Below, piece by piece: positions 3,178 to 63,753 of a stretch of DNA of 64,000 nucleotides. The translations under genes were made by a program, and so were the position numbers. The notes under the pieces were generated by a model. It saw only the letters and a list, made by a program, of their open reading frames with translations. It was not told the DNA's origin and did not search any database. Each line of letters starts with the position of its first letter. Within the stretch, counting starts at the first letter, position 1. The stretch is taken from positions 32,159 to 96,158 of IMG/VR virus record IMGVR_UViG_3300025886_001957; one strand, given 5' to 3'. Source of the DNA: a virus.

Positions 3178-3987
3178 TCAACCCCAATTATTTTTAGGCC
3201 ATTCGTCAACGCAATCATGTATATCAGGGTTGCCATGAAATACTGCTATACTAGTTTCGTCTAGTATAACTGGAATACCCGGAGCTCTAAAATTTCTTTT
3301 TCCATTTATTAATGAAAGATCGTGTTTAGCTCTCATTTCCCATTTGTAACTTTGTATCCATTCGTCCGGCCAAAAAATATGATTGTGTATTTCTTTAAAC
3401 ATAAAATCTTGATCGCCATGTAACCGCTTGGTCCAATGTGTTATATCTCCAATAAATTTTTGATATATATCTTTTAATGATCCAATTTTTATTCTAAATA
3501 CCGAACTGTTCATTCTATCATAACCAGCTCTTGCAAATCTATTAAAGTCTCTGATAATAATAAAATCATTATCAGGTCTATAATAAAAAAGATTATCAAT
3601 ATTTCTAAAAACAATCAAGTCTAAATCTAGAAATAATAACGTACCAGTAAACGGTAACTCGTCGCTTAAAAACCAAACTTTGAACCACCATCCTAGCACA
3701 GGAAGTTTTGGTAAATTGTATGTTTTAATATTTTTATCAAGTCCAGTATTGTCATCAGTAAAGCATACAAATTCATGCGGTATGGTTAAATTTCTACTAA
3801 CCATACTGTGTAACTTATTAACATACTCTGCACTATACTTGTTACCCCATTTTAGACAACACACATATTTAATATCAGTTTGTGCAGTTGGTATGGTATC
3901 TACTTGTAATAACTTGGATTGTTTTTGTTTGCGCTTGCGTAACTTTCTTTGCTCTTTTGTTTCACCAGGCAGATAAACCTTAGTCAT
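3178..3987 (-). CDS. Glycosyltransferase-like protein
   Basis: The start is taken at ATG 3987 (MTKVYLPGETKEQRK), overlapping the end of the QueD-like gene by 8 bases; a longer reading would run far into that gene. A basic N-terminal tail precedes a GT-A-type domain: CCLKWGNKYSAEYVNKL, then TLLFLDLDLIVF, whose DLD fits a DXD metal/nucleotide-sugar site, then HGDQDFMFKEI. This pattern is common in glycosyltransferases that modify phage or host surface glycans. Donor and acceptor unknown. Confidence 0.8.
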   Translation of the reverse strand: MTKVYLPGETKEQRKLRKRKQKQSKLLQVDTIPTAQTDIKYVCCLKWGNKYSAEYVNKLHSMVSRNLTIPHEFVCFTDDNTGLDKNIKTYNLPKLPVLGWWFKVWFLSDELPFTGTLLFLDLDLIVFRNIDNLFYYRPDNDFIIIRDFNRFARAGYDRMNSSVFRIKIGSLKDIYQKFIGDITHWTKRLHGDQDFMFKEIHNHIFWPDEWIQSYKWEMRAKHDLSLINGKRNFRAPGIPVILDETSIAVFHGNPDIHDCVDEWPKNNWG

Positions 3988-4456
3988 TAAAAGACATTTT
4001 TTGTACTGTAAATGGTGTGTAGATAGCACTATTAGCACCATGTTCTGAACACTCGCAGCTTTCGCACCAGCAACGTCCGTTTGTTACTTCTCTAATAAGT
4101 TCGTTTGCAAATTTCCATGCATGGTATGCAAACATCTCTGCACCAACACCATTTAATACTGTAATTTCAGCAAGTCCCATGTTCTCAAGTTCTGCAAACT
4201 TATATAAGTATGGATCATCTCTATCAATAACAGTTTTATGATCAAACATATCTTCTAACCAGGCCTTGAGCGGTTTAAGGCCTCCAAAGTCTACTGCCCA
4301 GTTCTTATCATCAAGATCTGTGCATCCAAATATAAATTTAAATCCTAAGCTATAGCCATGTAGTAAATGACAGTGTGAATGATCTGCATTAGGTTGTCGA
4401 AACACTGCTGATAATCCTATTTGTGATCCATATGTTTTAGTTGAATAGAACGCCAT
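3980..4456 (-). CDS. 6-pyruvoyl-tetrahydropterin synthase / QueD-like
   Basis: A 158-residue T-fold protein. HSHCHLLHGYS gives the zinc-binding His cluster, and VDFGGLKPLKAWLEDMFDHKTV the second conserved block (the D/FDH motif). In cells QueD makes 6-carboxytetrahydropterin for queuosine/7-deazaguanine; phages use the pathway for DNA modification or tRNA. No other 7-deazaguanine gene is in this window, so the role is open. A Cys-rich insertion (CWCESCECSEHG) near the C-terminus is unusual. Confidence 0.82.
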   Translation of the reverse strand: MAFYSTKTYGSQIGLSAVFRQPNADHSHCHLLHGYSLGFKFIFGCTDLDDKNWAVDFGGLKPLKAWLEDMFDHKTVIDRDDPYLYKFAELENMGLAEITVLNGVGAEMFAYHAWKFANELIREVTNGRCWCESCECSEHGANSAIYTPFTVQKMSFND

Positions 4457-4504
4457 ATTAATACTCCTGTGTTAACTATATTATATATGATTTTTAAGTA
4501 GTTG

Positions 4505-4822
4505 TCAATCAAACTTCGGAGGCTTGATCATATTTTTTTTAAGTTCGTCGAGTTCTAATTTAAGTTCTTCTAGTCCATTTGCTGCACTAGACATTTTACG
4601 AATTACTATTCTTACAGTATAAATTGTCCAGAACCACCAAGTAGTAGCAGTAATTGCAGTTAGTAGTAAACTAATGTAAAATAATATATCTAGTTCTACA
4701 AAGTCAATCCATAATAATAATATTGATATTATTATAAAACATACTGGAGCAAGTTTTGCATATAAATCCCAACGTGCTATTTGTTTTTCGATCTTTAAAT
4801 TTAAATCAGCGTCGGTGTTCAA
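4505..4822 (-). CDS. Two-TM membrane protein with coiled-coil tail, 105 aa
   Basis: An acidic N-terminus is followed by two membrane segments at about residues 23-45 and 48-72 and a C-terminal helix (NGLEELKLELDELKKNM) that looks coiled-coil. This layout is common for small phage membrane proteins of unknown function. No family recognised. Confidence 0.7.
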   Translation of the reverse strand: MNTDADLNLKIEKQIARWDLYAKLAPVCFIIISILLLWIDFVELDILFYISLLLTAITATTWWFWTIYTVRIVIRKMSSAANGLEELKLELDELKKNMIKPPKFD

Positions 4823-4931
4823 AATCAGTACTTCCTTAACTTTTGATAAAGGAGATGTGTGTTGAACTCCTATGTATTATATAATATATTTATCATTGCT
4901 ACAAGTTGTTTTCTAATTAGTTATGAATATG

Positions 4932-5222
4932 TTATTGTACTATATTTACATTATTAATTCTATCATATCTAAAACTGCGCCATCCTTTGGCATTTACATC
5001 CCATACGTTAATTACTGCATCAGATATTTCTCGAATCTTTTTTTGACTAAGAGGATCAGACTTTGTTGCCATTGGTTTTATATCTTCACGCAATGTACAA
5101 GTCATTATACGTTTGTCACCATTAAGTTTAGTAAAGTCAACTTCTAACACATTTTTTTCTAGTTGTAATTTTAGGTCTGTTTTAGTAGGAATACCTTTTA
5201 AGGTAGCTACCGTCTCATTCAC
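4932..5222 (-). CDS. WYL_2-type SH3-like phage protein
   Basis: The block [14 protein letters not shown] followed by [18 protein letters not shown] strongly resembles the small SH3/Sm-like (WYL_2, formerly DUF2693) proteins of T4-like phages; function unknown. The start chosen is GTG at 5222, which overlaps the ClpP stop codon (GTGAATGA); an ATG at 5252 in the same frame would reach further into clpP and has no clear ribosome binding site. Confidence 0.72.
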
Positions 5223-5805
5223 GATGTTTGACGATTTTGTCTGCGAGTCCATAATCTACTGCCTCCTGTGCTGTCATAAATGTATCTCTATCCATATCTC
5301 TTTCAAGTTCTTCGTAGGTTTTTCCAACACTGTTATGATGTACATATAAATTTGTAAGCATCTTTTTCATTGAAGTAATTTCTTTGTATTGTATTTCAAT
5401 GTCGCTTTGCATTCCACGTGCGCCGCCGCTTGGTTGATGGATCATTGTCCTGCTATGCGGTAATACACTACGATGACCTTTAGCACCCGATTGTGCTAAG
5501 AAGCTACCCATTGAACAAGCTTGTCCCATTACAATAGTATGTACATCATTTTTTACAAATTGCATAGTATCATAAATTGCCATACCTGATGTAATAACAC
5601 CTCCGGGACTATTAATCATTAGTGTAATTGGCTTTTTATTGTTTGATGATTCTAAAAATAATAATTGTGCTACAATTAAGTTAGCCATGCCATCTTCAAC
5701 TTGACCATTTAACATAACAATACGATCTTTCATTAGACGACTATAAATGTCGTATGATCGTTCGCCGCGTGATTCTTGTTCTACTACCATAGGTACTAAT
5801 GGCAT
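5215..5805 (-). CDS. clpP: ATP-dependent Clp protease proteolytic subunit ClpP
   Basis: A 196-residue serine protease, close to the size of cellular ClpP. The catalytic triad is visible: Ser98 in GQACSMGSF, His123 in [10 protein letters not shown] and Asp172 in [14 protein letters not shown] at 65-69 forms the oxyanion region. Rings of ClpP degrade proteins fed by ClpX or ClpA, neither of which is in the window, so host unfoldases are presumably used. It follows purS by one base and starts after the strong ribosome binding site GGAGAATAAA. ClpS (30508-30819) and a tmRNA (39303-39660) are encoded elsewhere in this window. Confidence 0.96.
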
Positions 5806-5806
5806 T

Positions 5807-6043
5807 TTATTCTCCTATTTCTTCTAGTTCGTAATATTCCATTACTTCATTTGTTTGAGATTTAGCTATAGCTTCGGCTTTCTTCCAATCAGCTTCTTCT
5901 AAGTTAAATTCAATTATTTTATCAATCCTAACGTCCTCAACTTCGGGCCATCCTAATGATTGAAGTGCATATGTTACAGTCTGTCCAGCATTGTCGAGTA
6001 TTCCTCGACGAATACATATCATTACTTTATATCGTGTTACCAA
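5807..6043 (-). CDS. purS: PurS, FGAM synthase small subunit
   Basis: A 78-residue protein matching Pur[21 protein letters not shown] is the family signature near residue 13, with [10 protein letters not shown] after it. PurS bridges PurL and PurQ in formylglycinamidine synthase (purine synthesis). No purL or purQ is seen here, so it would act with the host enzymes. It overlaps the phosphoribosyltransferase gene by 7 bases and is directly followed by clpP. Confidence 0.9.
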
Positions 6044-6501
6044 GTTACAGTTCTTTTTGCTGGCATTTGAAATAAAGCAGTAACACCATCGGTTGCTTGC
6101 GTTCTAGCAAAAATACACCAGCCAAACCAACCTTTGTCTTCAATATCTTTCTTAATAATTTCAATTTCCGTAAACTCACGAAAGCTTGTTCCAGTAGTCC
6201 AAACATCGTCAACAATAAGAACAGGATCGTTATCGTGTCCTGAAACATAATGACTCAATGCATTTTGTAATTTTACACCGCCTCTGGGAATACCAACTAC
6301 TTTAGAAAATTGTCGAGTTTCAATCTCAGAAATCATTTTAGCAAAACATTCCCATTCTGCATCTGAAATTGCGTCACACTCAATCTTCCACGTTAGGTCT
6401 AATCCAGCATGTGACTTAAAATTACACTGCTGAAATAAATCAATTTTTGGTTCGTCGAGTACAGTTATATTTAATTTGTCATAATAAGATTCTAAACCCA
6501 T
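6037..6501 (-). CDS. Phosphoribosyltransferase-like protein
   Basis: A type I phosphoribosyltransferase fold: VVGIPRGGVKLQNAL near residue 88, then the PRPP-binding loop VLIVDDVWTTGTSF near residue 113. The base substrate cannot be told; an orotate- or purine-type transfer is possible. Overlap with purS suggests a role in nucleotide supply. Confidence 0.8.
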   Translation of the reverse strand: MGLESYYDKLNITVLDEPKIDLFQQCNFKSHAGLDLTWKIECDAISDAEWECFAKMISEIETRQFSKVVGIPRGGVKLQNALSHYVSGHDNDPVLIVDDVWTTGTSFREFTEIEIIKKDIEDKGWFGWCIFARTQATDGVTALFQMPAKRTVTW

Positions 6502-6513
6502 GTATCTTTCCTT

Positions 6514-6741
6514 TCATCCACTTACATATGTTGTACCATCATTAAATTTAGCATAAAAATTTTTTTGTTCGTGTATTCTGCCTAGTACTTCTTGTATCTC
6601 ATGCATCTCTGCTCTAAGTTGTTCTGAAGTTTCTCCCTGAGCAATAGCTAATCCTCTTCTACCTGCTTTTGCTCTTAGAGCCTGTTCGATTATTTCAATA
6701 TCTCTAATTGATAAATTAAAAGTTGTATTTGGTTTTACCAT
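6514..6741 (-). CDS. Hypothetical protein, 75 aa
   Basis: Mostly helical (SIRDIEIIEQALRAKAGRR, then EQLRAEMHEIQEVLGRIHEQ), probably a helical hairpin. Its start lies 12 bases before the phosphoribosyltransferase in the same direction as clpP. Its style matches small conserved proteins of T4-like marine phages; function unknown. Confidence 0.68.
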   Translation of the reverse strand: MVKPNTTFNLSIRDIEIIEQALRAKAGRRGLAIAQGETSEQLRAEMHEIQEVLGRIHEQKNFYAKFNDGTTYVSG

Positions 6742-10660: not shown

Positions 10661-10811
10661 GCTTAAAATAACTTTTTAAAAAGTCACGTCAAGACATACC
10701 CCCTAATAGCGGCCAATATGTAATATATATTGTATTAGTCTTGATCATGTTATCTACTCTCTGTTGTTATATTTATATAATACACTATTATTTGATGATG
10801 TCAACCTTTAT

Positions 10812-21666: not shown

Positions 21667-21893
21667 TATGGATGGATTATAATATAACTCAAGCTGGTAG
21701 TAGTTTTAGAGTTGAAGGAGACTGGCCAGGCGAAGTTATGGGACTTGACAAACAAGGTAATCCTGGATTTAAAGATAATCCTTTATACAAACCTGGCGAT
21801 GTGTTTATTGTAAATAATGGCGGATGGCTAGTTAAGACCGACGAAGTTAACGCATTATTATTAAAACACGAATCTACTTCGAAGTCGCAATAA
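21663..21893 (+). CDS. Hypothetical protein, 76 aa
   Basis: Soluble, Gly-rich protein (YKPGDVFIVNNGGWLVK). Last gene of the plus-strand block; its 3' end overlaps the convergent cyclase gene by 20 bases, with no terminator visible between them. Not recognised. Confidence 0.68.
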   Translation: MIWMDYNITQAGSSFRVEGDWPGEVMGLDKQGNPGFKDNPLYKPGDVFIVNNGGWLVKTDEVNALLLKHESTSKSQ

Positions 21894-23919
21894 ACACACC
21901 GTTCCAATCAGTAGGCAAGTCTTGTGTTTTTTGAAATTCGCAACGTTCTATCCACATGTTATAATATCCTTCTAACTTAGCATCAAAATGTCGCATAAGT
22001 TTATTACACAAGTCAATTGCTTCGTCAAATTCTTGTAATCTATATGCTTGATGCATACGTTGATGCATCTCTTGGCTTTTGCGTTGCGCTGGAGTTTTTT
22101 GAACATCTAACACTGTCCATATTCCAATTCCTATAGTTTTGCCCTTGACTGCTAAGTCATCTATTTTTAAATAGAAAAAGTCATTTTTAGTTTGCTGATA
22201 TGTAGCATCACCAACAAGCAGGACACATCCATATTCTTTACATTTACTTTCTATTCGTGCTGCTGTTGAAACAGAATCTCCGAGGACGTCATAACTGTGT
22301 CGCTGTGTACTTCCCATCTCGCCCAAATAACCAAGACCAGTATTAATGCCAGCCCCCATACCAACGGGTGGCCTACCTTCTGCTGTAATTTTCTCATTAA
22401 ATAACTCCACTGCTTTAAGCATGTCAAGACCGCATTGTACTGCGGTTTTTGGATGTTCAGGATCATCTATAGGTGCATTGTGTATGTGCATACTAGCATC
22501 ACCAATGTACTTAATTATCATTCCATCCATATCTAATACTGGTTGCGTAATTGCATCCATGTATGAGTTCATAACCTTTGTTAGTCCTTTTACATCGTCG
22601 CCAAATGATTCACCTAATGGAGTGAAGCCACGTAAATCACTGAACACAATGCTAACTTCTTTCTTCATACCTTCTTTGATTAGTGCAGGATTTTCCTGTA
22701 GCATACGCACCACTGTTGGTGATGCATATCCTGCAAACTGTTTTTTAATTTCTTGTTTTTGTAAAAACTCATCTAAGAACTTAGGTATATATCTTGCTAG
22801 TCCTACCGTAATTAAAAACACAGCAGGAATAAATCCATCAATCAATATCAGGTGCTCAGAAAACATCCAGTAACTAAATCCTATGCTGCTGCCCACGGAC
22901 ACTACAAAGAAGGCTATACCTATGTATGTCCAACGAGCTATTAATATCATTGCAATTCCTACAATAATAAATGCAGCGATTTCACCCCAAGCCTTTGCAT
23001 CAGGATGTCTTACTATATTAGATTCGTTAAAAACTGTACCTAATAGTGTAGCTTGTAATTCGTGTGGAAATATACTTCCTTTAGCTGTAGCAATTGGTTG
23101 TGTAATACCAGCAGCGGTAGGACCTACAAATACTACAGCACCAGCGAAATCATCAGGTAACTCTACAGCACTTGCTTTTATATTTTGTTGACTCCAATCA
23201 ATCCATACTCTTCCAACTGTATCTGTTTGTAGGAATCCAAATTGTGGTATACGTAGTTTATCTACTCCTAACTCATTTAGTTTAATTTGGAAGCTAGGAT
23301 CACCTGCTAGTACACGTAGTACTTCCATTGTTACATTTGGATATAGCGTGCCGTTTGATTCTAGTATTAACGGAGCTCTGCGTGTTACTCCATCAATTTC
23401 GGCAAATGTATTTGTTATACCACTACCATATGCATTATTTTCAATAGTCGGAACGTTTGCAATAATACCCGGAGCATTAGGAATCATGTGCATGTATTCT
23501 GGATTTATAATTGCTGCACCTGGATTAATTGGAGTATTTTTATCTTTTGTAGAACCTAGCATTGTTACTATCACAGGGTAGTTCTGCATGGTTAATGCAA
23601 GTACATCATCTTGAGATGATCTATCATTCTCTGACATTAACACATTAAACACCACAAGTCCAGCGCCTCTGGCATATAAATCCTCTATAAGGCTAGCATA
23701 ATCGCCTCTTGGCCATGGCCATTGACCACGTGCCTCTAAACTTGGTTCATCGATGTTTACTGTGTAAATGTTATTTTGTACAGAAGTTTGATTTATAATT
23801 AATGTATCAAAATATTTTAATCGAATACTTTCTAAAAAATTAGGATTTGATAGATATACATAACTTAATACACATAATAATAATACACTCCAGACAGACG
23901 AAAAGATAATTTTATGCAT
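21874..23919 (-). CDS. CHASE2-domain adenylate/guanylate cyclase
   Basis: A 681-residue membrane cyclase. A signal anchor (residues 7-24) leads to a periplasmic CHASE2 sensor (about 35-320; NIDEPSLEARGQWPWPRGDY), then three membrane segments (about 320-400) and a class III cyclase domain (about 430-610). Metal sites are in IVFSDLRGFTP and IIKYIGDASM, and YDVLGDSVSTAARIES gives the adenine-selecting Asp and the catalytic Arg. The usual transition-state Asn (VNxAAR) is Ser here, so activity may be reduced. CHASE2 cyclases often accompany FecR proteins, and one lies upstream (26129-27271) with the curli-like genes. Confidence 0.9.
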   Translation of the reverse strand: MHKIIFSSVWSVLLLCVLSYVYLSNPNFLESIRLKYFDTLIINQTSVQNNIYTVNIDEPSLEARGQWPWPRGDYASLIEDLYARGAGLVVFNVLMSENDRSSQDDVLALTMQNYPVIVTMLGSTKDKNTPINPGAAIINPEYMHMIPNAPGIIANVPTIENNAYGSGITNTFAEIDGVTRRAPLILESNGTLYPNVTMEVLRVLAGDPSFQIKLNELGVDKLRIPQFGFLQTDTVGRVWIDWSQQNIKASAVELPDDFAGAVVFVGPTAAGITQPIATAKGSIFPHELQATLLGTVFNESNIVRHPDAKAWGEIAAFIIVGIAMILIARWTYIGIAFFVVSVGSSIGFSYWMFSEHLILIDGFIPAVFLITVGLARYIPKFLDEFLQKQEIKKQFAGYASPTVVRMLQENPALIKEGMKKEVSIVFSDLRGFTPLGESFGDDVKGLTKVMNSYMDAITQPVLDMDGMIIKYIGDASMHIHNAPIDDPEHPKTAVQCGLDMLKAVELFNEKITAEGRPPVGMGAGINTGLGYLGEMGSTQRHSYDVLGDSVSTAARIESKCKEYGCVLLVGDATYQQTKNDFFYLKIDDLAVKGKTIGIGIWTVLDVQKTPAQRKSQEMHQRMHQAYRLQEFDEAIDLCNKLMRHFDAKLEGYYNMWIERCEFQKTQDLPTDWNGVFIATSK

Positions 23920-25002: not shown

Positions 25003-26190
25003 TTAATTTTGTAATATCGAAACAGAACAACCTGCTGTATTTGTACAACTTCCAGTAAGACTGTATGTTTGAGCAGTACTACTATTCTGTTCAGTAGTTA
25101 CACTATATGCGCCACCCCCATTGGTTACATTAATTTCCATATTATGTGCGCCGTTGCCGTGTTGCAATGCATCAACTGTATGCCCGTCTCCTGTTACTAG
25201 TACATCGGCAAATAAACTGTTAGAACTCTTCTGTGTTAACTCAATGTTATTATTGTCGCCGGTTACTTCAATAAATCCCTGGTGCTGTCCATTTTTACGT
25301 TGTTCATGTAATATATCATTATTATCACCTGTAACAATGTTTGCCAAATGTTTTGAACCACTACAGCAACTAGTTTTTTGATCTGTTTGAGTATGTTTAT
25401 AAACATTATTATCACCTGTAACTGTTACGTATGCTTCGTGATCGCCGCCTTCGATTGTATCAACTGTGCCGCTGCCGTATTTTCCTTGCCAACTTATTAC
25501 ACTGTTATTACCTCCAATAACAACTCCACGTAGAAAATTACTTTCGCCGTCACCGCCCTGATATACATCAATAGTATTATCATCTCCGATTAGCATACCT
25601 TCAAATTGTTCGTATTGTGAACCATTTTGTGTAACTGTAAGAGTATTACGATCGCCAGTAATAGGTGTGCTGTCTATGCCACTAGTACTATGATTATTAC
25701 CATCTTGATCAATTGTAATAGTGTTATCATCGCCGTTAACTTCTACATATGCTTCGTTATCATCTCCGTCTTGTGAAACTGTAATAGTTTGATCATAGTC
25801 GCCGCCATTGCCTAGCTCGGCATATACTGTATTGTCATCGCCGGTTTGTGTTAAAATAATCTTTGCATTATTACCGTGACTATCTGCCACAGCAATATTT
25901 CTATCACCAGTTTGACTAATTGTTTGCTGTCCATTCCCGGCACTTTGATATAATCCTATACTATTATTATCACCTGTTTGTGTGTAAGAATTATCTTGAT
26001 TATTTCCATGTAGTGTAGCTTTAGCTGTGCTACTATGAAGATGACTTATAGTATTATCTTGGCCATCTTGATCTATAGTCAAGTTGGTATTATTTCCAAC
26101 TTGCTTAATATAGATATCATTTGCATAACTACCACTCGCGTTGAATAATAGTAATACTATTGCCAGTGGTTGTACCCAACCTATAATCAT
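25003..26190 (-). CDS. Curlin-repeat (CsgA/CsgB-like) secreted protein
   Basis: The start at 26190 (MIIGWVQPLAIVLLLFNASG) gives a clean signal peptide; longer readings run deep into the FecR gene. The mature protein of about 370 residues is made of curlin-type repeats: IDQDGQDNTI, YTQTGDNNSI, ISQTGDRNIAV, LTQTGDDNTV, VSQDGDDNEAY, IDQDGNNHS and more (Q-x-G-x-x-N pattern). Curlin repeats stack into amyloid. It is much longer than E. coli CsgA (151 residues) and has a Cys pair (KTSCCSGS). It probably is exported by the CsgG of the same operon. Confidence 0.85.
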   Translation of the reverse strand: MIIGWVQPLAIVLLLFNASGSYANDIYIKQVGNNTNLTIDQDGQDNTISHLHSSTAKATLHGNNQDNSYTQTGDNNSIGLYQSAGNGQQTISQTGDRNIAVADSHGNNAKIILTQTGDDNTVYAELGNGGDYDQTITVSQDGDDNEAYVEVNGDDNTITIDQDGNNHSTSGIDSTPITGDRNTLTVTQNGSQYEQFEGMLIGDDNTIDVYQGGDGESNFLRGVVIGGNNSVISWQGKYGSGTVDTIEGGDHEAYVTVTGDNNVYKHTQTDQKTSCCSGSKHLANIVTGDNNDILHEQRKNGQHQGFIEVTGDNNNIELTQKSSNSLFADVLVTGDGHTVDALQHGNGAHNMEINVTNGGGAYSVTTEQNSSTAQTYSLTGSCTNTAGCSVSILQN

Positions 26191-27271
26191 AGTATTCAAA
26201 GTCTTGTTGCTCCATGTCGATCGTATATCCATAGTTTTGATCAAGTCGTAATCTAAAATAATTATCGCTTCCATTATCCTCTCGACTAATCTCCCAACTA
26301 CCTTCCCATTCTTCTAATTGTATTCCTGTTGTTAAATCTATGCCGGTTTGGTATTGCTTAAAAAATAAAGAATTTTGTATATCTAATTCATTACTAAGTC
26401 TAGCCATAAGTGCTGCATTTAGTGCATCAAGCATATCATATAGTACATCGGCAAAAATGTAATCTGTTTCATCAAGCTGTGTTGACCAAATTCCGTCAAT
26501 ACTGTCTTGAAGTGCATCAGCATCTAACCCATCAAATTCTAGCATATCGATACCTAAGAAATCATATTGTGCTCTTGCTTTTCTTAGGATTTCAGCTTCT
26601 TCGTCTTCGTAAGGAGTGCGCTTTCTTAGAATTAATAACTGTGTAAGATTTTGTTCTTCTATATCAAGTATAAGAGGTTTTGATGGCGGTTGATTGCTAG
26701 TGCTAGTCATAGTTGTTTGAAAAGATTGATTCATAATAACTATACCTGCATCAGTCTCAACTTCTATTTCTCCTGTATAACATACTCCTTGATCATTGCA
26801 ACTCGGTAGTAAGGTTATCATTGATCCTCCAAGTTCGTCAACTACCATTGCAAAATCTGTGCCGCGGACATTAATAGTTGCACTTGGCGTTCTTATATTA
26901 ACATTTTGTCTAAAGTTTTTAGCAATTTGGCCACTAGCATATCTAATTCCTCCAAGGCTTGCTTTAATACTTAATTTACCTATTCCGTTAGCTGGGTCGT
27001 ATACAAATTCATCAATTAATAGTCGACTATGTTCTGTTAAATCAACCCTAGTATCATCAATAAAATCAATTTGCATAGTACCTCGTGCTGTTACAGCAGT
27101 GTCAAGGCTTTGTACACCAATTCCTTTATCGCCAACTACTACGTCATTGCCTCTTTCAAGAACTCCTGACCCTTGTATTTTCCCAATTTGTCCAGCAGAA
27201 TCAACAGCAGCAAATGCTATCGAGGTTAGACAACCTAAGTTAATCAGACTGATTAATATTAACTGAACCAT
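26129..27271 (-). CDS. FecR-domain secreted protein
   Basis: A 380-residue protein with a signal peptide (residues 1-22) and a FecR domain: GVLERGNDVVVGDKGIGVQS, TAVTARGTMQIDFIDDTRVD, LTEHSRLLIDEFVYDP, NVNIRTPSATINVRGTDFAM. The C-terminal half is helical and then beta-rich. FecR domains transmit or anchor in the periplasm and often occur with CHASE2 cyclases. It overlaps the curlin genes on both sides (32 and about 62 bases), so expression is coupled. Confidence 0.85.
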   Translation of the reverse strand: MVQLILISLINLGCLTSIAFAAVDSAGQIGKIQGSGVLERGNDVVVGDKGIGVQSLDTAVTARGTMQIDFIDDTRVDLTEHSRLLIDEFVYDPANGIGKLSIKASLGGIRYASGQIAKNFRQNVNIRTPSATINVRGTDFAMVVDELGGSMITLLPSCNDQGVCYTGEIEVETDAGIVIMNQSFQTTMTSTSNQPPSKPLILDIEEQNLTQLLILRKRTPYEDEEAEILRKARAQYDFLGIDMLEFDGLDADALQDSIDGIWSTQLDETDYIFADVLYDMLDALNAALMARLSNELDIQNSLFFKQYQTGIDLTTGIQLEEWEGSWEISREDNGSDNYFRLRLDQNYGYTIDMEQQDFEYYDYRLGTTTGNSITIIQREW

Positions 27272-27977
27272 CGTCGCCTGTCATTTCTAAATTTACTTTG
27301 TTGTCATTTATTCCACTTTGTGTTATGTCAATTAGATTGCCGCCTCCTGTGATATCTAATGTAACTGCATGTCCTCCGCTGTCTCCATCGCCACTAATGT
27401 CTATATCAATTAAGTTTCCACCGGCGTCGGTACTATTACCTGATGCTACGTCATTTAGAGTAGTTGAACTAGATGTACTACTATTATCTACAGTAACAGT
27501 AACGTCTGCATTAGTCCCGTCTACTTCGGCTTGTATAACATTTCCATCGCCGTCAATTGTAAATGCTGCTACTAAATTTTGTGCATCATTTGTTTCACCA
27601 GCAAAAATATCAAATGTATTATCATCGCCAGTTGTTGTAATGTTAACAGTCACATTATCACAATTAACACCGTTGGTTGAATCACATTTCATATCAACGT
27701 TGTTTGAATCTCCAGTAAATGTCCATGTTCCTGTGTAGGTGCTACCATCAATAATTGCATCTATTTTATTTGTATCACCAGTTTGTGTAATTGCAAAAGT
27801 CATTGAATCGCCAGAGAGCATGGCATCTTTTGTGCTATCGCCAATTTCATTATTTTGCCCATCTTGTATTATATCTAAATCTAATGTGTCGCCAACTTGT
27901 TCGATATAAATTTCATTTGCTAACAAACTTGATCCAAATAATATTAAAGTAGCAATTATTATTATTTTTATTTTCAT
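27240..27977 (-). CDS. Curlin-repeat secreted protein
   Basis: The ATG at 27977 follows GGTGAGGGCA; a GTG at 27986 is a possible alternative. Signal peptide MKIKIIIIATLILFGSSLLA, then EIYIEQVGDTLDLDIIQDGQ, ITQTGDTNKID, ITTTGDDNTFD, ITQSGINDNKV and VNINQSD: curlin-like repeats rich in Asp, Asn and Thr. One Cys pair (DMKCDSTNGVNCDN). Likely a second amyloid-type subunit exported with CsgG/CsgF. Confidence 0.83.
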   Translation of the reverse strand: MKIKIIIIATLILFGSSLLANEIYIEQVGDTLDLDIIQDGQNNEIGDSTKDAMLSGDSMTFAITQTGDTNKIDAIIDGSTYTGTWTFTGDSNNVDMKCDSTNGVNCDNVTVNITTTGDDNTFDIFAGETNDAQNLVAAFTIDGDGNVIQAEVDGTNADVTVTVDNSSTSSSTTLNDVASGNSTDAGGNLIDIDISGDGDSGGHAVTLDITGGGNLIDITQSGINDNKVNLEMTGDDGSVNINQSD

Positions 27978-27982
27978 TGCCC

Positions 27983-28792
27983 TCACCTAAACTCTTTAAA
28001 TTTCCAAAGACCCTTTCTTTCGCCCTCGTACACCATTTCAACTACTCCGGCCTCAATAGCTGCTCTTACAGCATAATTTACTGGTTCGTTAATTGACCAT
28101 CCAATTTCGCTTTCAACTGCTTTAGTTCCCATATCAAAAAACTTAAAAACATCAGTTCCTGAACGATAGCTAGCAATAGTTTTTTCAGTTGCTACACTAA
28201 ATAGTACCCTTCCTGTACTAACACTTACTATTCTCATTACTACAGTTACATAGTCAATTCTATATTCATCTTGCAACCCTAGTCCTAAGTAACGTGCTCC
28301 AACTCCTCCAGTTGAAACATTACTATCATAACCAACAATACCGCCTTCCAGTAAAAGTCCTGCAAACAACATTGGCTTAAGGGCAGTTGGACCATGTGGT
28401 TTTTCTTTTTCATATGTATCTCTTGTGTTTCTTATTAGTTGTCGTTCTTTAATCAAATGCTCCATGCCAACACGCTCTACAACTTCAAACCAAGTTCCAT
28501 TTCCGACTTCCTGTAATGCTTTAATTACCCATACTTCGGATCCTTGTGTAACTGCACTACTAAGATTTGCTATCTTGTCTGCAGGTTTACGCTGACCCGT
28601 TTTATCTAAAAAATTATAAACAGCAATAGTCATCTTTTTAGCATCAAGTTCAGGCACGGCATCTAGACGTATCTGCTCAGGTGCCGTTTGTATTCTTGCT
28701 GGACCTACTGACTTTTTGATATCTTGAGATTTCTGCCATCCAGTACAACTTGTTAGAATACACACAACCAATATTAATATTATATTTTTCAA
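27983..28792 (-). CDS. csgG: Curli secretion channel CsgG
   Basis: A 269-residue lipoprotein: signal MKNIILILVVCILTSC with the lipid-accepting Cys at 16. Then MTIAVYNFLDKTGQRKPA, GTWFEVVERVGMEHLIKERQ, LLLEGGIVGYDSNVSTGGVG and VTVVMRIVSVSTGRVLFSV match CsgG throughout. CsgG forms a nonameric outer-membrane pore for curli subunits. It overlaps csgF by 4 bases. No csgE or csgD is seen here. Confidence 0.93.
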   Translation of the reverse strand: MKNIILILVVCILTSCTGWQKSQDIKKSVGPARIQTAPEQIRLDAVPELDAKKMTIAVYNFLDKTGQRKPADKIANLSSAVTQGSEVWVIKALQEVGNGTWFEVVERVGMEHLIKERQLIRNTRDTYEKEKPHGPTALKPMLFAGLLLEGGIVGYDSNVSTGGVGARYLGLGLQDEYRIDYVTVVMRIVSVSTGRVLFSVATEKTIASYRSGTDVFKFFDMGTKAVESEIGWSINEPVNYAVRAAIEAGVVEMVYEGERKGLWKFKEFR

Positions 28793-39302: not shown

Positions 39303-39660
39303 GTATGTAAGCCCTCGTAGTCGGCACTTCTGTTGCCAGGCAGTACCCGCCCCGGAAAGCCTATTTAGGCTGCCATTGCCATGTCTGGCGCATAATTGTC
39401 ATTTGCAATTATAGTTGTTGACCAATAACGCAGTCATCCGGTAAACTCCACTCTATCTTCACACTGGTCGATCCTATTTCGGCCCCATCAAAGATACACT
39501 ATCCTGCCTCCTCTTAACATTTAGTTAAGTATCAACAATCAGGTTCAAAACATCTCGCAATGTCAGTTTTATCAACTACTAAGTAGCATAGTATATCTAT
39601 GGTGGAGCCGTCCGGTACCGCCCCGGAGTCCCATATGTGTCCATTTTGCTTCAACATTTA
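39303..39660 (-). ncRNA. ssrA: Permuted two-piece tmRNA gene
   Basis: In transcript order: an acceptor piece ending CGGCTCC-ACCA at 39600, preceded by a T-arm TCCGG-GGCGGTA-CCGGA; a 113-base intervening segment; then the coding piece starting GGGGCCGAAATAGGATCGAC at 39486. GGGGCCG pairs with CGGCTCC (7 bp, one G-U). The tag frame (39365-39406) encodes ANDNYAPDMAMAA and a stop inside a GCC-GGC hairpin. This is the circularly permuted form of alphaproteobacteria. It frees stalled ribosomes and tags peptides for degradation. Outer ends are approximate. Confidence 0.9.
39365..39406 (-). other. tmRNA tag reading frame ANDNYAPDMAMAA
   Basis: GCA resume codon at 39404-39406, then AAT GAC AAT TAT GCG CCA GAC ATG GCA ATG GCA GCC and TAA at 39365-39367. 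The AND-N-[YF]-A start and the AA end match known proteobacterial tags; the final MAA differs from the usual LAA or VAA. Confidence 0.9.
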
Positions 39661-39693
39661 CAAGTATATTTATATATTAATTTATGGGTATTG

Positions 39694-39882
39694 TCAAGTC
39701 TCAATGGCATCTTTTAATGTACATTTATATTCAACAGCATCCCATCTACCATCTGGTGGTATTAATTGGTATATTGGGAGCATGTCATAACAATCTTGTT
39801 TAGAATCAAACCACTGTACATCTTGTGTAATACAGTCCGATTGTAAACAAACTGTTAGCAATATGTGCCACATTATTTCCAT
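39694..39882 (-). CDS. Small secreted Cys-containing protein, 62 aa
   Basis: Starts MEIMWHILLTVCLQSD with a signal-like stretch, then FDSKQDCYDMLPIYQ and AVEYKCTLKDAIET. Third member of the two-Cys small secreted set in this window. Shares one base with the oxygenase-like gene stop. Confidence 0.6.
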   Translation of the reverse strand: MEIMWHILLTVCLQSDCITQDVQWFDSKQDCYDMLPIYQLIPPDGRWDAVEYKCTLKDAIET

Positions 39883-40979
39883 CAGTTACGAGCCATATGT
39901 TTAGGTTCAGTGTCTACTAATGCTTGCTGATACGGATTAACATCTAAATACTTGCCCCATTCACTATAGTAATGACGCATACCAACTTCGTCATGTATTG
40001 TTGAGTTTTCATGTCTTCCATGTAAGATATGTCTATCTTCTGTACCTTCTCTCATTGTTGTGCCTTGTCCAGATACGCCTAATAAATCTTCATGTAAGTT
40101 GCGTCCAAATGGTCCCCAAATTGTATTATGATGCTTGATACGAGTTTGTCTTTCTTCTGGAGTGTCTTTGCGTAATCCATATCCTCTAAATTCAATTAGT
40201 ACGCTGTTAGGTCCTAGTGGAGTAACACTATCACTACGGTAAGCACTACCACGCAAGTTAAAGTTAAAGCCTGGAAACAAGTCTACCATATACCATTGGT
40301 TAGGCGGCAAGTTAGGAAAACTTAATTCTCCTCTATCACCTTCTTTATCAAATTCGGTATAGTTGACTGTAAAACTACTTACATTTACATGTCCATTATC
40401 AAACGGTACATTTTTTCTAGCAAAATATTCATCATTAAACCCAGTTACGCGATTGAAATAGTGCATAAAGTCGTGGTAGAATTCACTGTTAGTATCATGC
40501 CATAGTTTGTAGTTGGTGGGAATAATTGCTTTGTGATAATGAAATATTTCTAGTTCTTCTGTATCAATAGCATCTGCAATACAATCAAATGCACCTGCTG
40601 TCCATTGTTCTACATCCATTGTAGGATTAGGATCTAGTGTTACCCAAACCATACCACCATGCTTTATTTCACTGTATAGTTCTGAATTGCTAGTCGCAAT
40701 AGGGGCCTTTAATGTTCCTGTAGGAGTTATTACATCGTAGTTATAATATGCTTTTACTCCGTTACCTGTATTGTAAACAATAATATTATGTCCAGCAATT
40801 TGTGATGTACGATAATCGAATTTATTATACATTTCACTAATATGGCATACTGGTACCCATACTTTACTAAAAATGTTTTCAACTTCTTCATTGAATATTG
40901 TTTGACTAGAATATATTTCGCTACTAAGTGATTCTACGTTAGGTTTTTTTAACCAATTCTTATGATTACGTGGTGGCAT
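39882..40979 (-). CDS. Rieske-oxygenase alpha-subunit homologue lacking the Rieske centre
   Basis: A 365-residue protein that follows ring-hydroxylating oxygenase alpha subunits: FSKVWVPVCHISEM at the start, and the mononuclear iron site in YKLWHDTNSEFYHDFMHYFN (D/N-x-x-H-x3-H), then LFPGFNFNLRGSAY in the catalytic domain. The usual C-x-H ... C-x-x-H cluster ligands that should lie at about residues 55-115 are absent; that region holds only VYNTGNGVKAYYN and GGMVWVTLDPNP. Without the cluster it could not take electrons in the usual way. Strong AAGGAGATA ribosome binding site. Confidence 0.8.
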   Translation of the reverse strand: MPPRNHKNWLKKPNVESLSSEIYSSQTIFNEEVENIFSKVWVPVCHISEMYNKFDYRTSQIAGHNIIVYNTGNGVKAYYNYDVITPTGTLKAPIATSNSELYSEIKHGGMVWVTLDPNPTMDVEQWTAGAFDCIADAIDTEELEIFHYHKAIIPTNYKLWHDTNSEFYHDFMHYFNRVTGFNDEYFARKNVPFDNGHVNVSSFTVNYTEFDKEGDRGELSFPNLPPNQWYMVDLFPGFNFNLRGSAYRSDSVTPLGPNSVLIEFRGYGLRKDTPEERQTRIKHHNTIWGPFGRNLHEDLLGVSGQGTTMREGTEDRHILHGRHENSTIHDEVGMRHYYSEWGKYLDVNPYQQALVDTEPKHMARN

Positions 40980-60854: not shown

Positions 60855-61643
60855 TTATCCAAAGTCTCCTGACACATATGCTTTGGTTTTTCTGTGTGAC
60901 GGGTTGTCAAAGATCTTCTTTGTACTGCCTTTTTCTATAATCTCACCTAGGTGAAAGTATGCTGTTGTATCGCTGATACGTCTTGCCTGTTGCATGTTGT
61001 GAGTAACAATAACAATAGTATAGTTCTTCTTTAACTCTAGTATAAGTTCTTCAATTGCGTGTGTAGAGATAGGATCTAGTGCTGAACAAGGCTCATCTAG
61101 TAATAGTATCTGTGGATCAACAGCAAGGCTACGAGCAATACATAATCGCTGTTGCTGTCCACCACTAAGGCCAAACGCATTGTCGTGTAATCTATCTTTT
61201 ACTTCATCCCAAAGATTTGCTTTCTTTAGACTGTCTTCTACGATAGCATCTAACTGTTCTTTTGTTTCGTACATACGATGTAGTTTAGGACCATACGCAA
61301 TGTTTTCGTAGATGCTTTTAGGAAAAGGATTAGGCTTTTGGAATACCATACCAACACTCTTGCGTAGATTGTTTACATTTGTGTATTGTGTTCTATAGAT
61401 ATCAGTACCGTCAATGTCTACACTTCCTTTGGTACGGCAAATATCAACAAAGTCGTTCATACGATTGAGAGCTCTAAGGAATGTGCTCTTGCCACAGCCA
61501 CTAGGGCCAATCAATGCTGTTACATTGTTCTTGCGTATCTGTAAGTCAGCATCAATAATAGCGTGATGATCGTCATACCAAATGTTTAGTCCTCGAACAT
61601 TGATCTTTGAACTTGAATTTAGTTCTAGTGTTTCTCTTACCAT
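60855..61643 (-). CDS. pstB: Phosphate ABC transporter ATPase PstB
   Basis: 262 residues. Walker [16 protein letters not shown]-loop [14 protein letters not shown], signature [20 protein letters not shown], Walker [16 protein letters not shown], and the switch His in [11 protein letters not shown]. Drives phosphate uptake with PstA and PstC. Overlaps pstA by 7 bases. Confidence 0.97.
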
Positions 61644-62815
61644 TTTATTTCAAACCTCTTTCGTAACCAGATTGCTAATACATTTAGCACTATGAGTGCT
61701 GTTAGTAGAACAAGGATAGCCGCACTGGTTTTCTCAGCAAAGCCTCGTTCAGGTGAGTCTGCCCAAAGATATATTTGAACAGGTAATGTTGTTGCACTAT
61801 CCATCGGAGTGCTTGGTGCTGTAAGAATAAATGCAACCATACCAATCATTAGTAGTGGCGCACTCTCTCCTATTGCTCTAGCAATGCCTATGATAGTTCC
61901 TGTGATGATACCAGGCATAGCCGCAGGTAGCACTTGATATACAGTTGTTTGCATTCTACTGCCACCTAGAGCATTTGATGCATCTCTAATTGCCTGTGGC
62001 ACTGTACGCAGGGCCGTCCTAGCACTGATAACAATCACAGGAAGTATTAGGATGCCCAGTGTGATTGCTCCTACTAGACTAGCACTCCTTGGCATACCAA
62101 AGAAGTTTATCAACAATGCTAACCCTAACAAGCCATAAACAATACTAGGTACTGCGGCCAGGTTGTTGATGTTGATCTCCATAAAGTCTCGTACCCACCC
62201 ACGTTTCTTTGTTTGGAACTCTTCCATATAGGTAGCACATCCTACTCCTATTGGAAACGCGAACAATACTGCCAGTCCAATAGTATAGACAGTTCCTACC
62301 ACTGCTCCCCATATGCCTGCTATCTCAGGTGAGCGACTGTCTGAGTTTCGCCAGAAGTCCAAATTGAATGTTCGATATATCTTGCCTTGTTCAATTAATT
62401 GATCTGTTATTGAACGTTGCTTATCTGTTAGTTTGTCATAAACTCCCTTTACATACATATCAACATCTGTATGGGCTACTAATGTGTATACACCGGGCTC
62501 TGTGATATCTAATGTTGAATAGGCATTAGGTGTAACTAACTGTCGTAAATCCTTTTTTGTTTTTCTGTCAGCGCCTGGCCAGAGATGATACATTGCACTG
62601 TTAATTGTTTTCTTTGTAGTACTTTCTACAGCATAAACTTCTACATCAATCTTAGTTTGTGTAAATGCGCCTATACCTCTATAGCCTAGTGTAGCAAAGA
62701 ACACTAACATCAATAATGCTGTTAGTGCAAGTGCAGACTTACAGGCATACTCTAGGCCTTTTTGTAAGCGTCTGCGTTTGCCGTCTAATTTACTGTTTAA
62801 GTCTATCGATTGCAT
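61637..62815 (-). CDS. pstA: Phosphate ABC transporter permease PstA
   Basis: 392 residues, longer than E. coli PstA (about 296) because of a periplasmic insertion of about 110 residues after the first membrane helix. [20 protein letters not shown] starts the permease core, and [20 protein letters not shown] and [20 protein letters not shown] are the EAA-type loop. Overlaps pstC by 26 bases. Confidence 0.95.
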
Positions 62816-63737
62816 TCTTATAGTTCCTATATGCTATCCAGTTTAATATAAATGTCACAACAAACAGTGTAAAGGCTAGAGCAAATGCGGATAGCGTTTT
62901 CGCACTGTCAAACTCTTGGTCGCCTATTAGTAGTGTTACGATCTGTACTGTTACTGTTGTTACTGCTTCGAGTGGATTGGCTGTTAGATTAGCGGCTAGA
63001 CCTGCGGCCATAACAACAATCATTGTTTCACCTATGGCTCTTGCAATGGCCATAATAAATCCTGCAACAATGCCCGGCAGGGCGGCAGGTAATATAATAT
63101 CTTTAATTGTTTCTTCTCGTGTAGCACCTACACCTCTTGCTCCATCTCGCATTGCACTTGGTACTGCTTTGATAACATCATCTGTGATTGATGAGATCAA
63201 GGGTATAATCATCATACCCATTACAACACCTGCGGCCAATGCTGACTCTGTTGCTACATCTAAACCTAGTGTAACACCCATACTCCTCAGCCACGGACCT
63301 AACACAATCGCGGCAAAGAATCCATACACCACTGTTGGAATACCTGCTAGTATTTCCAGTAACGGTTTTACAACTGTTCGATGTGAGGGTTTTAAATATT
63401 CTGCTGTATAAATTGCGGCAAGCAATCCTATTGGACCTGCTATGCACATTGCAATAAGTGTAATAAACATTGTACCCCATATCAAAGGTACAAATCCAAA
63501 CTCGCCTGAACTACCTACACTGTCTGCTCTAAAGGCTGTTTGGGGGCTCCAAGTTGTGTTAAAGAAAAACTCACTTGGTTCAACCATTGTAAAAAATTTA
63601 ATTGTTTCGTAACTTAGACTAGCAATGATGGCAAATGTAATGCCTACTGTAATCCAACTACTAACTCTAAAAAAGCCTTTGAGCCAGTCTTCACTGAACC
63701 CGCTTTGCTTTTGCTTTGGTCCTATCCATATAAACAT
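62790..63737 (-). CDS. pstC: Phosphate ABC transporter permease PstC
   Basis: Start ATG 63737 (MFIWIGPKQKQSGFSEDWLK) after ATGAGG. About 315 residues with six membrane helices; IPTVVYGFFAAIVLGPWLRS, IPLISSITDDVIKAVPSAMR and LPGIVAGFIMAIARAIGETM are PstC blocks. Partner of PstA. Confidence 0.95.
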   Translation of the reverse strand: MFIWIGPKQKQSGFSEDWLKGFFRVSSWITVGITFAIIASLSYETIKFFTMVEPSEFFFNTTWSPQTAFRADSVGSSGEFGFVPLIWGTMFITLIAMCIAGPIGLLAAIYTAEYLKPSHRTVVKPLLEILAGIPTVVYGFFAAIVLGPWLRSMGVTLGLDVATESALAAGVVMGMMIIPLISSITDDVIKAVPSAMRDGARGVGATREETIKDIILPAALPGIVAGFIMAIARAIGETMIVVMAAGLAANLTANPLEAVTTVTVQIVTLLIGDQEFDSAKTLSAFALAFTLFVVTFILNWIAYRNYKNAIDRLKQ

Positions 63738-63753
63738 TCTATACCTCATAATA

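Follow-up and report, generated by a model that had tools for sequence, protein, structure and literature searches.

A tmRNA releases ribosomes that are stuck and marks their products for degradation. Does a phage gene for a two-piece tmRNA encode a working RNA, what drives its expression, and was it taken recently from a host or long kept by phages? A locus from a marine phage raises these questions. The window, i.e., the whole stretch of 64,000 nucleotides analysed, comes from a viral record of 96,158 bp (hereafter the contig), which was judged to be a fragment of a large phage because its relatives reach 330–357 kb. Phage two-piece tmRNAs have already been published, and therefore the bare finding is not new; one survey counted 133 distinct tmRNA structures in phages, of which 53, mostly marine, were permuted (PMC9004378). 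New here are the conserved slot of the gene, a phage lineage without the host leader, a composite promoter, and Clp, DnaK and DnaJ genes on the same contig.

Identification and structure of the two-piece tmRNA gene

ARAGORN, the Rfam covariance models and reading of the sequence agreed that window positions 39661–39319 on the minus strand hold a complete, alpha-type, circularly permuted tmRNA gene (Table 1). A sequence-only reading of this stretch had claimed such a gene in a phage and had proposed a search with RF01849 as the check. The match to this model was significant, at 131.8 bits (E 1e-35; gathering score, 50), and RF04321 matched at 119.3 bits (cut-off, 47). Both matches are far beyond chance. 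ARAGORN reported a permuted tmRNA with a tag identical to that read from the sequence, and the 13-codon frame with its stop was thereby confirmed.

The acceptor end lies upstream of the 5′ end on the minus strand, as had been described. The acceptor 3′ strand, CGGCTCC-A-CCA, has its last base at 39600, and the coding piece opens with GGGGCCGAAATAGGATCGAC, its G1 being at 39486; both positions agree with the ends named in the sequence-only reading. The claimed 7-bp acceptor pairing forms completely (GGGGCCG/CGGCTCC, 7/7 pairs, with G.U at 3:70), as does the T-stem (5/5), and co-folding of both pieces gave paired acceptor strands and a formed T-arm. The G.U pair at 3:70 is the recognition signal of alanyl-tRNA synthetase, and it was present in 99 of 99 parsed permuted tmRNAs and likewise in each of the 45 viral sequences compared below. 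For the acceptor piece, the 5′ end was placed from the start of the RF04321 match and the promoter position, and the 3′ end of the coding piece is approximate, being set by the end of the RF01849 match. The intervening sequence is longer than in the 25 parsed host genes (9–94 nt). The 5′ leader hairpin of the hosts, an optional flank of RF01849 that lies outside RF04321, is a gap in the alignment here.

Table 1. Features of the tmRNA locus and of the Clp and chaperone genes (window coordinates, except where the contig is named)
Feature	Position	Strand	Remarks
ClpA-like unfoldase	contig 3442-5679		IGF loop at the ClpP-docking place
DnaJ	contig 5741-6538		
ClpP-like protease subunit, 196 aa	5215..5805	-	PF00574, 258 bits
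DnaK (Hsp70), 637 aa	31379..33292	-	PF00012, 837 bits; NCBIfam DnaK above cut-off
Coding piece	39319..39486	-	acceptor 5′ strand, D-arm core, tag frame, 3′ hairpin region
Tag frame, 13 codons + TAA	39365..39406	-	ANDNYAPDMAMAA; ARAGORN and sequence reading
Intervening sequence, 113 nt	39487..39599	-	between CCA and G1; predicted to be removed on processing
Acceptor piece, 62 nt	39600..39661	-	outer P2 strand, T-arm, acceptor 3′ strand, CCA
-10 element TATAAATA	39667..39674	-	identical to the T4 late-promoter consensus
sigma70-type -35 box TTGACA	39692..39697	-	exact; 17 nt before TATAAATA
Methanesulfonate-monooxygenase-alpha-like protein	39882..40979	-	adjoins the tmRNA gene, upstream, same strand

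The tag frame (GCA AAT GAC AAT TAT GCG CCA GAC ATG GCA ATG GCA GCC TAA) is intact, with an SspB-type start and a final AA followed by the stop. Its MAA end had been called unusual; it is indeed uncommon, but it recurs in one host gene (L470, ANNNSAPVAMAA) and in two viral genes (L219 and L557, ANDNYAPEMAMAA). The T-loop GGCGGTA had been called non-canonical, but it equals the consensus of RF01849 and occurs in 20 of the 25 parsed host genes; an unusual T-loop is ruled out, since this sequence is the family norm. The best reading of the locus is a functional phage two-piece tmRNA, with its structure visible in the sequence and its processing and tagging predicted.

Tags of 29–30 aa, conserved between contigs (ANDNAL.NV.FV.F.......NEDFALAA), were seen in a group of phage permuted tmRNAs, at the viral loci L538 (3572–3965), L509, L537, L572, L203 and L495. 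Each is possibly a real long tag, or else a frame extending upstream of the true resume codon.

Selection, genomic slot and lineage of the gene

Pairing in the acceptor stem, in the T-stem and in the helix between the two pieces is kept through compensatory changes among 45 diverged viral sequences, with covariation at acceptor positions 5:68 and 6:67, at T-stem positions 1–3 and in the inter-piece helix. Acceptor pair 5:68 was paired in 45/45 (six pair types) under a parser that demanded at least 6/7 acceptor and at least 4/5 T-stem pairs and so favoured both stems. The parser did not demand the inter-piece helix, where pair 27:91 was paired in 42/45 (AT, CG, GT, GC and TA). The tmRNA is under selection.

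The gene lies between nrdA/nrdB and a block of nuclease-37264-35054-34646-IMPDH-DnaK, and the same slot is occupied in eight other diverged viral contigs, where the neighbours are 29–85% identical at the protein level and some block genes are missing in some. A slot shared by eight contigs at such divergence indicates that the gene has been kept over long times. No tmRNA was found in the 34 closest clamp-loader relatives, most of whose records stop short of the slot (57 kb away here). The adjoining protein upstream is 67% identical to the methanesulfonate monooxygenase alpha subunit of Puniceispirillum phage HMO-2011, a SAR116 phage. A permuted tmRNA lay at most 4 kb away in about one third of the 80 nearest IMG/VR relatives of this MsmA-like gene, many of them near-copies, upstream in some loci and downstream in others.

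Most hosts have a leader hairpin followed by TATGGnnATAAACG, while most phage genes have a short (G/A)TTGA-type head. The strict host leader motif, a crude regular expression, matched 28 of 30 hosts and 13 of 90 viral genes, and 10 of the 13 viral matches also fit the phage head. A tree built from 66 genes placed 43 of the 49 viral genes, together with one gene from a bacterial bin (L328), on one side and the 16 other hosts on the opposite side, with moderate support (80/90); six viral genes lay near the hosts. L328 lies on contig FZLS01000066.1 of Rhodobacteraceae bacterium Water_Bin34, and its neighbours are a phage-type DNA polymerase, a primase/helicase and a MazG-like gene, so that this contig is probably a misbinned phage. 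The closest relative of the window tmRNA is the viral L219, mentioned above. From the split of the tree, inheritance among phages is more probable for this gene than a recent capture. Most phage permuted tmRNAs probably form a lineage apart from the sampled hosts, a set that may lack a closely related marine host.

A composite promoter upstream of the acceptor piece

An exact TTGACA-N17-TATAAATA (39697–39667) ends 5 nt short of the acceptor piece; no second exact copy exists on the contig, where the expected number is about 0.009. This element was found by direct scan; the sigma70 scan requires T at the sixth -10 position and therefore did not list it. The octamer TATAAATA is the T4 late-promoter consensus, as cited in PMC5587285. 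It is rarer than chance in the window, with 4 copies against about 12 expected. The contig has five coding-strand copies. One stands before the tmRNA, and two precede start codons in the tail-fibre region by about 20–25 nt; one of the genes behind these two matches tail/baseplate connector families, and the other, adjoining it, has no family match. At the level of sequence and position, two marks of a T4-type late promoter are seen here: TATAAATA about 10 nt upstream of the start, and its placement ahead of virion genes.

Among 64 non-redundant viral permuted tmRNAs, 34 have TATAAATA in the 75-nt promoter zone, where shuffled sequences gave 1.4 on average and 8 at most. In 28 of these 34 the octamer has a TTGAC box ahead of it; the spacing from TTGACn is 16–18 nt in 27 and exactly 17 nt in 24, and the distance from the octamer to the T-arm is 39–46 nt. 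By contrast, TATAAATA was present in only 1 of 63 alphaproteobacterial tmRNA genes read from genome contigs, and that one was L328. Without L328 the count is 0 of 62 hosts (Fisher p 3e-13, a value too small given related sequences); these 62 genes were not de-replicated, and they do not certainly include SAR11 and SAR116. The host genes are on average GC-richer, and AT-rich hosts (0.28–0.37 GC) likewise lack the octamer. We interpret the promoter as a putative early signal (host sigma70) fused to a putative late signal (T4-type), the late polymerase being suggested by the motif.

Another coding-strand TATAAATA (window 10770–10777, minus strand), with TTGACA nearby, lies about 220 nt upstream of genes for tRNA-Trp and tRNA-Tyr, and it may be a similar promoter for these tRNA genes.

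Clp protease and chaperone genes on the contig

The ClpP-like protein matched bacterial ClpP chains in phmmer searches with up to 255 bits, and its Ser-His-Asp triad is present, CSMGSF, MIHQP and DRDTF being aligned with bacterial ClpP. The unfoldase scored 867.5 bits against TIGR02639, below the curated cut-off of 993.15, and was therefore named ClpA-like. Its closest solved relatives are those of E. coli ClpA (659 bits), with whose SIGLIH its TIGFGG is aligned; the Walker motifs and both AAA+ modules are present.

Since ClpA belongs to the core genes of this group of phages, its presence beside a tmRNA is by itself no evidence for a link. Thirteen large ClpA-bearing records, not chosen for tmRNA, comprised four with tmRNA and ClpP, one with tmRNA only, two with ClpP only and six with neither; the association of tmRNA with ClpP among them is not significant (one-sided p 0.09), though suggestive. 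Most large viral records chosen only for tmRNA have no ClpA. From the gene content, the phage tmRNA probably feeds ClpAP. A stronger proposal is a dedicated tag-and-degrade pathway, in which a lineage-specific tmRNA, on early and late, would make tags that are read by the phage ClpA-like/ClpP pair (with DnaK/DnaJ). We put this forward tentatively, as possible but doubtful; if true, ribosome rescue and protein recycling would continue after shutdown of the host genome.

Proposed mode of action and alternative explanations

Considering the structure, covariation, tag frame, promoter conservation, synteny and Clp genes together, we think it likely that the locus encodes a working phage tmRNA that is expressed early and late, processed into two pieces, charged with alanine, used with host SmpB and able to send tagged proteins to Clp proteases. 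Early in infection, the host RNA polymerase (sigma70) would start from TTGACA/TATAAA, and late in infection a phage T4-type late polymerase complex would start from the overlapping TATAAATA, both close to where the acceptor piece begins. Host tRNA-processing enzymes are predicted to cut the precursor at the CCA (39600) and at G1 (39486), and the two pieces would remain paired after cutting. Host alanyl-tRNA synthetase would charge the RNA via G3.U70, host SmpB and EF-Tu would deliver it to stalled ribosomes, and A-ANDNYAPDMAMAA would be appended to the stalled products. Ribosomes would be kept free throughout infection, and the truncated proteins would go to Clp proteases, probably including the phage ClpA-like/ClpP pair. 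The earlier idea that the phage brings its own trans-translation is correct for the tmRNA itself, which is phage-encoded, but goes too far for the machinery. Neither the contig, itself a fragment, nor any of 50 related viral records yielded an SmpB gene, and therefore host SmpB, AlaRS, RNase P and others would be needed.

The RNA could equally work if the promoter were an ordinary sigma70 promoter with TATAAATA serving as just a good -10 box, giving early expression only, as proposed for phage Melnitz. TTGACA-N17-TATAAA is a near-perfect sigma70 promoter, and the Melnitz tmRNA is described behind an early promoter in PMC9004378. We nevertheless consider this explanation rather unlikely, since conservation covers the whole octamer and not the hexamer alone, and TATAAATA is rare on the contig and sits directly upstream of tail-region genes. 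Moreover, L544, L546, L167 and L192 have TATAAATA or TAAATA at the usual place without TTGACA at the right distance, and L537 and L547 have a separate TTGACA-N17-TATAAT farther upstream together with TAAATA at the usual place.

The intact tag bears on a different possibility, in which the phage RNA would be a decoy that sequesters the SmpB of the host and stops host trans-translation, as has been suggested for the tRNA-like-domain-only (TLD-only) RNA of mycobacteriophage DS6A. Phage TLD-only RNA is reported to inhibit tmRNA (PMC4131195, PMC11915505), and the gene comes without SmpB on the contig. A decoy, however, needs no tag, so the intact frame with its SspB-type start and AA end, and the intact tags in most phage relatives, count against it and leave it very unlikely. 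It has also to be considered that tmRNA genes are common integration sites (PMC11915505), and a host gene might have been copied by chance, e.g., by an integrating ancestor, or persist as a decaying remnant. This explanation is hardly credible: the slot is conserved across diverged phages, the helices covary, the promoter is phage-specific, and in the tree 43 of 49 viral genes are separated from every bona fide host that was sampled.

Provided that the findings on promoter and lineage stand, two-piece tmRNAs of phages have long been phage genes under phage control and are not recent captures from hosts. It would then become testable why phages keep a tmRNA, whether for help in early shut-off, for late ribosome rescue or for both. 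In that case the host could not be told from the tmRNA type alone, and a phage tmRNA filed by mistake in a bacterial genome would be recognisable by its promoter and missing leader, as in L328.

Comparison with known systems and the host

The gene shares with alphaproteobacterial tmRNAs (RF01849/RF04321) the gene order, the G3.U70 acceptor stem, the GGCGGTA T-loop, the D-arm core GAAATAGGATCGAC and an ANDN..AA tag. It differs in its RF01849 score, which is under that of nearly all sampled hosts (roughly 130–313 bits), in having neither the leader hairpin nor TATGGnnATAAACG, in its 113-nt intervening sequence and in the late-type promoter motif. Methylophilales phage Melnitz and Pelagibacter phage Mosig, marine T4-like phages, likewise have a permuted alpha-type tmRNA (PMC9004378). 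The Melnitz gene has TTGACA-N17-TATAAATA upstream, as here; the genome neighbourhood differs. A glutamine riboswitch is reported for Melnitz in the same article, whereas none reached the Rfam threshold in the window. In the accessible part of that article we found no mention of a late motif fused to the Melnitz early promoter or of its conservation. The T4 late promoter has the identical octamer (PMC5587285), which here also stands directly upstream of tail-region genes; in contrast to T4, the octamer of the tmRNA gene is joined, in register, to a -35 box.

Some huge phages are known to carry both tmRNA and SmpB (PMC7162821), and Clp genes have been described in jumbo phages. The accessible parts of PMC6102473 and PMC11242549 describe Atu_ph07 and AP-J-162, alphaproteobacterial jumbo phages of about 470–490 kb from soil hosts, which resemble the present phage in large size, Clp proteins and DnaJ; a tmRNA is listed for AP-J-162. 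Those parts contain no discussion that we could find of a link between tmRNA and Clp.

The sequence-only reading had also tied the phage to an alphaproteobacterial host. The alpha-type tmRNA and the HMO-2011-like neighbour do point in this direction, but the tie is too strong as worded, because Melnitz has an alpha-type tmRNA yet infects the gammaproteobacterial OM43 clade (PMC9004378), and the phage DnaK is equally close (about 60–63%) to alpha- and gammaproteobacterial DnaK. DnaK does not decide between the two classes.

Other genes of the contig

The contig also encodes ribonucleotide reductase, IMPDH, Hsp70, a CHASE2-cyclase, PRPP synthetase, permease-like, CsgG and curlin-repeat proteins, and beyond the window a PhoH-like protein, a clamp-loader-like (gp44-like) protein and the tail-fibre region. 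The MsmA-like oxygenase keeps the mononuclear iron motif DTNSEFYHDFMH, and no Rieske CxH...CxxH motif was seen in it by eye. The CHASE2 plus adenylate/guanylate cyclase protein (window 21874–23919, minus strand; 681 aa) is a membrane sensor and an unusual phage cargo. Two neighbouring genes for binding-protein-dependent (ABC-type) permeases, possibly of a phosphate transporter, lie at 61637–63749 (minus strand). Genes for a CsgG-like pore and a curlin-repeat protein, which reportedly occur in pelagimyophages and Melnitz, are at 25003–28792 on the minus strand.
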